Shown here: piece after piece, positions 1,121-63,017 of the stretch | How the letters are laid out: every line of letters begins with the position of its first letter | Numbering within the stretch: position 1 is the stretch's first letter | Source: Nitrospira lenta | GTDB taxonomy: Bacteria; Nitrospirota; Nitrospiria; Nitrospirales; Nitrospiraceae | Assembly: GCF_900403705.1 (NCBI RefSeq) | Contig: NZ_OUNR01000001.1 | Coordinates: forward strand, 496,001 to 560,000 | Direction of reading: 5' to 3' | Length of the DNA stretch: 64,000 bases | Notes under the pieces: generated by a model | The model's database searches: none | Told to the model about the DNA's origin: nothing | Seen by the model: only the letters and a program-made list of their open reading frames with translations | Made by a program: the position numbers and the translations under genes

Positions 1121-1186
1121 GAATACGCACCCCGATGGCCCACATAAAATGGATGATCGTGACTCTGCGTGCCTCTGATGGACTAC

Positions 1187-1266
1187 CAAATCGGCAAGTG
1201 CTCGAGGCAGTCCCGATGCACCAGTAGTCCCTACTCCGTCTCAAGCCCGACTATACGGTTCAGCAG
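1187..1266 (-). pseudogene. Decayed tandem copy of the pafA 5' end
   Basis: Immediately after the prcA stop, the minus strand reads LLNRIVGLETE-stop-GLLVHRDCLEHLPIW-stop, clearly the first 28 or so codons of pafA (MLNRIFGLETEYGLLVNEDRPDHSPTW). The ATG has become CTG and two in-frame stops are present. The segment aligns without gaps to positions 1041-1119, with 60 of 79 bases identical by my count (period 146 bp). It is a relic of a tandem duplication at the prcA/pafA boundary and cannot encode a ligase. Confidence 0.8.
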
Positions 1267-1267
1267 A

Positions 1268-2095
1268 TTAGCGATTCACAACAGACTGAAAGTCGCCTGG
1301 AAGCAATCGCGCGAGTTCGGCGGACTTCAGTGCACGATACTTCGATGAACCGGCCTGCTGCCGCTCCAGGACCGCGCACTCCAGCGTCTTATCCGCCAGC
1401 ACCTCACGAAGATGCGCGAGCAATGCAGTCTGATCGGGAATCGCTGCAACCGTCTCACCACTAGTCTCATGTCCGCTATCAGCCGACGCCTCTGACGAAT
1501 CCTGCTGCTGATGCGCCAGCGATCCGATCGCCCAGGTGCGCAGAGCCAACTGCAAGCCCTGCTCAAGCGTGCAGGGAGACGGTTTCTGTGCCTTCAGATA
1601 CTCTTGCATGCGCGCCTGCACCTGCTTCGTCGCGGCCAGCACGGCATACTCCTTGAGTTCTTCGAACGTTCCGTCATAGTTGATCGTGAGTAGCGTATCC
1701 TTCTCCGGTTTCTGACCCAACTCGGCCAGAAGAATCCTGACGATAAACGGCGCCTTATACACTTCTTCGAAAGCCTGCTTGATGACCGGAGCAATTCCGT
1801 ATTTCACCAGGCGCGAACCGGTCACGTCGGACGGAGATCGGTTGAACCCTTCCGTATGCGCCATCTCTAACAGGCTGAATCGGAGCTTTTCCAGATCCGC
1901 CGGATGCCCCATGCCTCCGAGCGCAATCCGGTCGTAAATCTCATAGAGCTTCGACGTGCCTTTGCTGACGGTCGTCAGGAGAAGACCTCCGTCGTAGCCC
2001 AGAGCCACTACCGGACTCCCCTGCCTGAACTGCTCATCGAGGTAAGTCCGGCGATTGCCAACTGCTTCTACCCACCGATACGGCTCTTCATACAT
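1268..2095 (-). CDS. prcA: 20S proteasome alpha subunit
   Basis: Alpha-type subunit of the bacterial 20S core particle, forming the outer gate rings that dock the Mpa ATPase. The 275 residues begin MYEEPYRWVEAVGNRR, and the body has the proteasome-fold patterns GSPVVALGYDGGLLLTT and SKLYEIYDRIALGGMGHPADLE. It has no catalytic N-terminal Thr, as expected for alpha. The C-terminal third (SEASADSGHETSGE) is low complexity before a terminal helix, a usual PrcA feature. The ATG overlaps the TGA of a 34-codon mini-ORF (ATGTATGA), implying translational coupling. It is followed by the pafA relic. Confidence 0.93.
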   Translation of the reverse strand: MYEEPYRWVEAVGNRRTYLDEQFRQGSPVVALGYDGGLLLTTVSKGTSKLYEIYDRIALGGMGHPADLEKLRFSLLEMAHTEGFNRSPSDVTGSRLVKYGIAPVIKQAFEEVYKAPFIVRILLAELGQKPEKDTLLTINYDGTFEELKEYAVLAATKQVQARMQEYLKAQKPSPCTLEQGLQLALRTWAIGSLAHQQQDSSEASADSGHETSGETVAAIPDQTALLAHLREVLADKTLECAVLERQQAGSSKYRALKSAELARLLPGDFQSVVNR

Positions 2096-2216
2096 GGCAC
2101 ACCACCTTGGATTCGCAAGATAGATTCAATCGATTCTTAACCATCCGGCGATGGCCGAGTGATTCAATCCATCGATAACACTCTTCATACATGGCGAGAC
2201 ACCTTCGTTTCGAACA
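2052..2216. repeat. Tandem duplication of the prcB/prcA junction, period 97 bp
   Basis: Positions 2052-2119 (real prcA start plus leader) and 2149-2216 (prcB end plus next start) align without gaps, 50 of 68 bases identical by my count. Each copy carries the end of a reading frame (KVSRHV-stop or KVVCHV-stop), then the same 8-base ATGTATGA overlap, then MYEExYRWxExxGxRR. The divergence indicates an old event, yet both reading frames remain open. Confidence 0.85.
2088..2192 (-). CDS. 34-residue mini-ORF derived from the prcA N-terminus
   Basis: The ATG overlaps the prcB stop (ATGTATGA) and the TGA overlaps the prcA ATG in the same way, so ribosomes leaving prcB could pass through this frame to reach prcA. 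The product starts MYEECYRWIESLGHRR, like PrcA, and ends CESKVVCHV, like the PrcB tail (FETKVSRHV). It is too short for a proteasome fold. It could be a coupling relay, a small peptide of unknown role, or a neutral relic that happens to be open. I see no independent evidence of translation. Confidence 0.4.
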   Translation of the reverse strand: MYEECYRWIESLGHRRMVKNRLNLSCESKVVCHV

Positions 2217-2958
2217 ATTGTTTCAAGGTAGAATCCGGAACCGTCTTCAGTCCGTCCTGCGTAATGAACTTGATGACCGGATAGAGACTCGCTTCGCGGT
2301 TGACGCCGCCGGTGGCCGAATCGAACTCGGCGGCACTGGTTAGAAGCCGCAACGCTTGAATCGTCGCCTCCTCCTCCGTCATCACGGCCAGGGGACGCTC
2401 ACCCCAAGTATTCACATAATGCAGAATGCCGCGGATCGTCGGCGACCCGGAGCCTGACACTGCATATTCGACTCCTTCAAACTCGGCCCCGAGAATGTCG
2501 TAGAAGAATATCTTAGCCGCGCCCTGCTCGAAGTCATAGCCGGCAAATACCGGCACTACCGCGCCGGTTCCCGCCAAGGCCGCGGCCACATTCTCTTTCA
2601 AGAGTTTCGACACCGCGCGCAACTTCCCTTCGAAGCTCAACTCCTGAAGCTGAGTCCGCCGGTAATATTTGAACGAGTGCTCAAGAATCCGCACCATTTC
2701 ATAGGCCGTCGCCGGCACCCCCGCAATGGCCATCACGCTATGGCGATCGATTTCGAGGACCTTGTCCGTCCGGTCGTACATCACCATATTGCCGGCCGTC
2801 GCCCGGCGATCGCCGGCCACGAGGACGCCGTCACGATACTTGAACGCGAGAATCGTCGTCGCGCTCGGCAGATCGACTCCCGATCCGACAGCCGACGGCT
2901 GACCGAATTGATAGCCCTGCTCCTTCAACAGCTGAAAAAAATCTCCCTGCATTCCCAT
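2185..2958 (-). CDS. prcB: 20S proteasome beta subunit
   Basis: Catalytic beta subunit of the 20S core, an N-terminal-nucleophile threonine peptidase made with a propeptide. From the chosen ATG (MGMQGDFFQLL) the propeptide is about 33 residues, and cleavage at SA/TTILAFKYRDG frees Thr34. The Lys in AFKYR and the AGDRRATAGN segment match the usual active-site Lys and Asp regions. The open frame extends 34 codons further upstream, but those codons resemble no family member and AAGAGGG sits near this ATG; the second ATG two codons later is also possible. The stop overlaps the 34-codon mini-ORF. Confidence 0.93.
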   Translation of the reverse strand: MGMQGDFFQLLKEQGYQFGQPSAVGSGVDLPSATTILAFKYRDGVLVAGDRRATAGNMVMYDRTDKVLEIDRHSVMAIAGVPATAYEMVRILEHSFKYYRRTQLQELSFEGKLRAVSKLLKENVAAALAGTGAVVPVFAGYDFEQGAAKIFFYDILGAEFEGVEYAVSGSGSPTIRGILHYVNTWGERPLAVMTEEEATIQALRLLTSAAEFDSATGGVNREASLYPVIKFITQDGLKTVPDSTLKQLFETKVSRHV

Positions 2959-62077: not shown

Positions 62078-62845
62078 TTACAACAAGATCGACGTCAGGA
62101 AATAATCCCACACCAGGATCAACACCGAAGACAACACCACCGCCTCAGTCGTCGCCGAACCCAATCCCTCGGCACTCATCCGGGTATAGAAGCCCTTGTA
62201 GCAGCAGACCCAGCTGATGATCAATCCGAAGCTGATCGACTTGAGGATACCGCCGTAAATATCTTTCCATTCGACAGCGGACTCAATCGATGTCCAGTAG
62301 GATCCGGCATTGACGCCGAGCAAATCCACACCGACCAAATAGCCGCCGTAAATCCCGACGACGTCGAACAGCGCCACCAGCAACGGCACGCCGATCAAGC
62401 CCCCGATTATTTTTGGCGCAATCAGATATTGAAGCGGATTGATCGCCATAGTATCGAGCGCGTCGATCTGTTCCGTGATGCGCATAATGCCGATTTCAGC
62501 GGTCATGGCGGAACCGGCCCGAGCCGTTACCATCAGCGCCGCTAACACAGGTCCGAGCTCACGAATCATACTCAACGCCACGGCGGACCCGAGCAATCCC
62601 TCAGAACCGAACTTCCGCAACGTGTAATAGCCCTGAAGGGCGAGCACCATGCCGGTGAATCCGGCCGTCAACACGACAACGAATGTGGATTTATAGCCGA
62701 TGAAGTGCAGCTGTTTGACGAACTGGAAGAACCGAAACGGCGGTCGCAGCAACCACCCGAACGATGACACGAGAAAAATGAGCATCCGCCCCATTTCCCG
62801 GACATTTCGCAAGACCGGCCGCCCTATTGCTGCAAGCACTGTCAT
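62078..62845 (-). CDS. mlaE: MlaE-type ABC permease
   Basis: A 255-residue integral membrane permease. Family blocks: FTGMVLALQGYYTLRKFGSEG, MIRELGPVLAALMVTARAGSAMTAEIG and MRITEQIDALDTMAINPLQYL. Its ATG overlaps the TGA of a 37-codon mini-ORF that repeats its own N-terminus, so translation may be coupled through that frame to hpnG. Confidence 0.95.
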   Translation of the reverse strand: MTVLAAIGRPVLRNVREMGRMLIFLVSSFGWLLRPPFRFFQFVKQLHFIGYKSTFVVVLTAGFTGMVLALQGYYTLRKFGSEGLLGSAVALSMIRELGPVLAALMVTARAGSAMTAEIGIMRITEQIDALDTMAINPLQYLIAPKIIGGLIGVPLLVALFDVVGIYGGYLVGVDLLGVNAGSYWTSIESAVEWKDIYGGILKSISFGLIISWVCCYKGFYTRMSAEGLGSATTEAVVLSSVLILVWDYFLTSILL

Positions 62846-63017
62846 GATCTCATCGTCCTGTGTACATCGAGCCTGGCTCTGAACCGAGCATCGGCCACGA
62901 TCCGCGCTCGGACAGATCGCAAGATCGGCCGCCCTATTGCTGCGAGCACTGTCATGATCTCATCGTCCTGTGGGAATCCGGCCCGACTCCGAATCGAGCA
63001 TTGATCACGGTCCGCAG
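62800..63017. repeat. Tandem duplication of the hpnG/mlaE junction, period 110 bp
   Basis: Positions 62800-62907 and 62910-63017 are two copies of the last 20 or so codons of hpnG plus the first 14 or so codons of mlaE. Over the central 56 bases (62807-62862 against 62917-62972) only two differ. Each copy contains the ATGA stop/start overlap. Much younger than the two duplications in the proteasome locus. Confidence 0.92.
62842..62955 (-). CDS. 37-residue mini-ORF at the hpnG/mlaE duplication
   Basis: Opens with an ATG overlapping the hpnG stop and closes with a TGA overlapping the mlaE ATG. It reads MTVLAAIGRPILRSVRARIV (MlaE-like: MTVLAAIGRPVLRNV) and ends RLDVHRTMRS (HpnG-like: GPDSHRTMRS). 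It is open because the 110-bp duplication happens to leave the stop in frame. Translation is plausible because the start context is the same as that of mlaE; a function for the peptide is not implied. Confidence 0.4.
   Translation of the reverse strand: MTVLAAIGRPILRSVRARIVADARFRARLDVHRTMRS

Follow-up and report, generated by a model that had tools for sequence, protein, structure and literature searches.

Translational coupling of overlapping genes by termination-reinitiation is common between the subunit genes of one complex (Huber et al. 2019, PMC6728339; 2023, PMC10666635). In such pairs the upstream stop overlaps the next start, and short upstream remnants suffice (PMC6728339, PMC10666635). 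The process requires overlaps or very short gaps, a remnant of 15 nt of the upstream gene being enough, and gaps of approximately 20 nt nearly eliminate reinitiation (PMC10666635). Expression leaders of the bicistronic design (BCD) are an engineered counterpart (e.g., PMC5995908, PMC10367133). In a BCD leader, a short cistron precedes the gene that it feeds, and its stop codon overlaps that gene's start. Partial tandem gene duplication followed by decay leaves direct repeats and two breakpoints, which then diverge neutrally. Features of all three are found at the boundary between the proteasome genes prcB and prcA in a UBact-proteasome operon of Nitrospira. No prior report of such relay ORFs was found in the open-access literature.

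The duplicated prcB/prcA junction

The window (the whole 64-kb stretch of DNA that was analyzed, from genome G000) carries on its minus strand, in one direction, the gene set known from the UBact/Pup-proteasome operon of Nitrospira: an ATPase gene (6563-4800), a Dop/PafA-like gene (4800-3271), UBact (3274-3080), prcB for the beta subunit (2185-2952), prcA for the alpha subunit (1268-2095), and pafA (from 1120). The UBact model scored above its curated cut-off (NF033388, 79.9 bits vs. 35), next to prcB, prcA, and Pup-ligase-type genes (PF03136, PF00227). The best matches of prcB (TIGR03690) and prcA (TIGR03691) stayed under the curated cut-offs, with the correct Pfam family. What departs from the described operon is that, in a few related species, gene heads have been duplicated at two of its boundaries.

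At the prcB/prcA boundary, a direct repeat of 83 nt was found, 75% identical and with a start-to-start spacing of 97 nt. One copy (2144-2226, minus strand) covers the true prcB tail and the head of a mini-ORF, and the other (2047-2129, minus strand) spans the tail of that mini-ORF together with the genuine head of prcA. Direct repeats of 50 nt with at least 76% identity and a spacing of 40-400 nt occur at only three places in the window, so this one is not a product of chance. The fixed spacing, together with the single-copy junction of relatives, is what a partial tandem duplication leaves behind. The earlier note had read from the letters both a duplication of the prcB end and prcA start with a 97-bp period and an open middle frame overlapping its two neighbours, and both readings held. 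The middle frame is a mini-ORF of 34 codons (2192-2088, minus strand; translation MYEECYRWIESLGHRRMVKNRLNLSCESKVVCHV, then stop), in which degenerate copies of the prcA head (MYEECYRWIESLGHRR) and of a prcB tail (RLNLSCESKVVCHV) are fused. Its start codon (ATG) shares bases with the stop of prcB, and its stop codon (TGA) with the start of prcA, each via ATGTATGA; the stop/start overlap of coupled gene pairs is therefore present at both ends. It differs from the known overlapping pairs in that a third, duplication-made ORF stands between the two genes, so that two successive reinitiations would be needed.

A Shine-Dalgarno-like AAGGTG motif lies 7 nt upstream of the mini-ORF ATG (2200-2205, minus strand) and again 7 nt upstream of the prcA ATG, within the mini-ORF tail (2103-2108, minus strand). 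A BCD leader contains the Shine-Dalgarno motif of the gene that it feeds, and the same layout is seen here, with the prcA AAGGTG inside a short ORF whose TGA overlaps the prcA ATG. BCD leaders are engineered; the one seen here in Nitrospira derives from the head of the very gene that follows it, duplicated and since decayed, and such leaders often carry the tail of the upstream gene as well. An RNA element, internal promoter, or terminator was ruled out as the function of the insert, given that its predicted fold did not stand out from shuffles (z -0.62) and that it contained nothing resembling a promoter, a terminator, or an Rfam family.

The same 97-nt insert is present in G013, G067, and G068, four genomes in total with G000, which rules out an assembly or scaffolding artefact. 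Two look-alikes (L155, L156), prcA in G074 and prcB-prcA in G024, flank runs of approximately 100 Ns and are probably scaffolding artefacts.

Evolution and spread of the insert

Among the four carriers, the mini-ORF showed 24 variable sites and zero indels, its length, ATG, and overlapping TGA being kept. Its dN/dS reached 1.1-2.3 in the informative pairs vs. 0.04-0.10 for the whole prcA and prcB. Between the window and G013, changes at codon positions 1/2/3 numbered 8/4/3 in the mini-ORF and 21/5/76 in prcA. The peptide is thus free of purifying selection of the kind expected of a functional small protein. A functional peptide was rejected on the dN/dS values and the codon-position counts. 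The earlier note had suggested that a PrcA-N-terminal peptide competes in ring assembly, and over its opening 16 codons the mini-ORF does resemble the PrcA head. However, the true PrcA head has undergone no amino-acid change in these 16 codons in the four genomes, whereas the mini-ORF changed mainly at codon positions 1 and 2, reads MHEARCRWLGSVGSCRTG in G067 and G068, and matched no protein family model. That the peptide itself acts, e.g., as a mimic of the PrcA N-terminus in the assembly of the alpha ring, is highly improbable.

The insert may also be no more than the relic of an old partial tandem duplication, decaying neutrally, with a frame that stayed open by chance; its conserved ends would follow from the stop of prcB and from the start and Shine-Dalgarno motif of prcA. 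In neutral simulations, the mini-ORF stayed open in all four genomes with P ~0.29-0.31 when only stops were counted, and with P of 0.17 or 0.09 when indels were added at 0.05 or 0.1 per substitution, respectively. Openness of this one ORF is compatible with neutral decay (P ~0.1-0.3), and its frame retention alone was dropped as a proof of selection. The high dN/dS without third-position bias, the inconspicuous RNA fold, and the lack of promoter-, terminator- or Rfam-like elements speak for such a relic, and so does the total divergence of the insert (0.155-0.186), close to the 0.16-0.19 of an aligned segment that lies upstream of the gene for the ATPase. Its absence from a near relative and the broken copy at pafA, both described below, agree as well. 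As an account of the phase and indel data presented in the last section it fares worse, and we consider it possible but rather doubtful.

The spread of the insert was followed in 80 prcA loci retrieved by protein search, prcA having been sought in 79 genomes of the genus, and with the mini-ORF DNA as a query against 175 genomes of the family. The full insert was found solely in G000, G013, G067, and G068, always 97 nt long and with the frame open. None of the remaining genomes of the genus that were searched has it, among them G022, a near relative, as well as G070, G039, G038, G069, and G010. The rpoB tree places G022 as sister to the window genome (support 97), whereas in gyrB the window genome falls outside a group containing G022. 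Since the two placements disagree, both a loss in G022 and a transfer into the window lineage fit. The earlier note had named absence or frameshift of the ORF in close relatives, or neutrally evolving codons, as observations that would tell against its reading. The ORF is indeed missing from G022 and its codons are neutral; yet an open frame of the same length was kept in G013, G067, and G068.

The prcB tail has a history of its own. In the window it belongs to the STLKQLFETKVSRHV class, whereas the tails of G013, G067, and G068, together with the tail of the mini-ORF, belong to the RLKPLFESKVVRHV class. Divergence reaches 0.255-0.262 in the tail vs. 0.077-0.102 over the first 480 nt of prcB. 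The duplicate may be a recombination scar: two diverged prcB tail alleles would circulate, and DNA of another lineage would have recombined at the junction, with one homologous and one illegitimate end, creating or reshaping the duplicate. It would account for the mosaic of alleles but not for the phase, and the direction of transfer cannot be fixed from these genomes. We regard it as unlikely; addressing origin only, it can hold alongside either a relay or a plain relic. The distribution of the STLKQLFETKVSRHV and RLKPLFESKVVRHV alleles (window 2185-2330) also conflicts with the species tree, even between genomes as closely related as G069 and G010, and this conflict points to recombination within the last 150 nt of the gene.

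Duplicated heads of other genes

A scan of 1.66 of the 3.76 Mb of G000 revealed five duplicated gene heads, those of prcA, pafA, mlaE, plsX, and a regulator of the NtrC type. In G039 and G002, of which 0.4 Mb each was scanned, no case turned up, a sample too small to show a difference in rate. The recurrence of the architecture at mlaE, plsX, and the NtrC-type regulator rules out a cause specific to the proteasome operon.

The second scar in the window lies where prcA meets pafA and consists of a duplicated head of pafA (1121-1266, minus strand; period 146). It is broken, its start codon having changed to CTG and an in-frame TAG having arisen, whereas in G067, G068, and G038 the scar has a period of 137 and an open ORF of 47 codons terminating on the pafA start. 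The four scar copies cluster together, separate from the true pafA heads, which suggests a single old origin with losses or transfer.

The third case in the window lies between a PNP_UDP_1 phosphorylase gene and mlaE, where a duplication with a 110-bp period (62799-63015) has produced a chimeric ORF of 37 codons (62842-62955, minus strand; MTVLAAIGRPILRSVRARIVADARFRARLDVHRTMRS, then stop), private to the window genome among 76 genomes searched. The genome scan added the plsX relay (G000:C1:638299-638162, period 134) and the NtrC-type relay (G000:C17:205319-205203, period 113). The former gene we take to be plsX from the resemblance of its head, MKIALDAMGGDHGPAP, and the latter is presumably an NtrC-type regulator, judging from its receiver-like head VDDEPLMR. 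The middle ORFs at mlaE and the NtrC-type regulator join the downstream head to the upstream tail in frame and have ATGA overlaps at both of their ends; the plsX case has a non-overlapping upstream gene.

In a protein-level scan, the four intact ORFs ranked at the top. Three of them scored 63, 62, and 48 against a shuffled-null maximum of 34, whereas plsX, at 29, was inside the null and draws its support from DNA identity and relatives. All 146 bases of the plsX insert were matched, at 85-86%, in each of G067, G068, G013, and G039, with no net indel at the level of the match. In G022, the NtrC-type relay has kept both its length and an open frame; 12 of its 38 residues differ.

Phase, indels and the proposed relay

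The ORF opened by a duplicated head ends on the true start in only one period class modulo 3, which is set by the overlap: 1 for ATGTATGA and 2 for ATGCTGA/ATGA. All five periods (97; 146 or 137; 110; 134; 113) are in this relay phase; the head duplications in G000 had been found without phase as a filter. When the requirement for a start codon was dropped, no head duplication in the other out-of-frame phase appeared in the 1.66 Mb of G000. The remaining matches of the scan comprised the antisense shadow of the NtrC-type case and periods that were multiples of three, mostly in repetitive or antisense frames. The chance of five out of five is (1/3)^5 = 0.004, or 0.012 without prcA, the case that prompted the idea; with in-frame duplications taken as undetectable (one in two), it is 0.03 and 0.06, respectively. 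Five cases are few, and the test was devised after three of them were known.

Indels were considered as a second measure. At the calibrated intergenic rate of 0.055 indels per substitution, approximately 106 substitutions in the relays (prcA 24, NtrC-type 24, plsX 21, pafA 37) lead to an expectation of approximately 5.8 frameshifts. None was observed, with a Poisson probability of ~0.003 from rough counts and a rough rate, the broken pafA copy of the window being excluded. Both the shared phase and the missing frameshifts in relatives argue against a plain relic. What sets these repeats apart from ordinary partial tandem duplication and decay is that every survivor sits in one and the same phase out of three.

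On this evidence, we lean towards the reading that partial tandem duplications survive if the duplicated start hands its ribosomes over, by termination-reinitiation, to the genuine one. Within Nitrospira, the ancestor of a small clade may have tandemly duplicated the prcB end and the prcA start with a period of 97, the prcA ribosome-binding site and start codon being copied along. Ribosomes finishing prcB, or binding at the first site, would then initiate on the duplicate, translate its 34 codons, and terminate at the TGA overlapping the true prcA ATG, where they could restart. Without translation of the mini-ORF, prcB and prcA are separated by a gap of 89 nt. The duplicate would act as a translational relay that depends on the frame, comparable to a bicistronic leader of natural origin, and the peptide would be a by-product. 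A duplicated start would be a decoy unless its frame terminated on the real start, so relay-phase duplications would be those that persist. That captured ribosomes reach the real start only in relay phase would explain the phase, the freely evolving peptide, and the plsX case. Translation, reinitiation, and selection on the frame are what we infer here from the structure and recurrence of the repeats.

More broadly, though with somewhat less than even confidence, we propose that the clade repeatedly gains duplicated gene heads and that selection retains a copy only where its mini-ORF terminates at the true start. Relay ORFs would then form a class of translated element that recurs and has been overlooked, selected on frame and not on peptide, and nature would have set up an experiment on translational coupling. 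Should the phase rule hold more widely, duplicated heads could serve as a test of coupling, three phases being possible and the survivors visible, and annotators would be warned that a small ORF similar to the head of the gene after it is a relay or a relic and not a small protein.

The earlier claim that the mini-ORF keeps beta and alpha coupled stands in part. AAGGTG precedes both starts by 7 nt, the frame is kept in four of four carriers, and five of five heads are in relay phase, whereas the openness of a single ORF fits neutrality. Coupling can be lost, because the pafA relay is broken in the window genome, with no visible consequence, and 42 of the 80 prcA loci lack the 8-nt prcB-prcA overlap. 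A relay is thus not indispensable. The overlap was found in 38 loci; the gaps of 10-222 nt in the others indicate that prcB-prcA coupling is itself dispensable in Nitrospira, and one of these 42 loci is an insert carrier.
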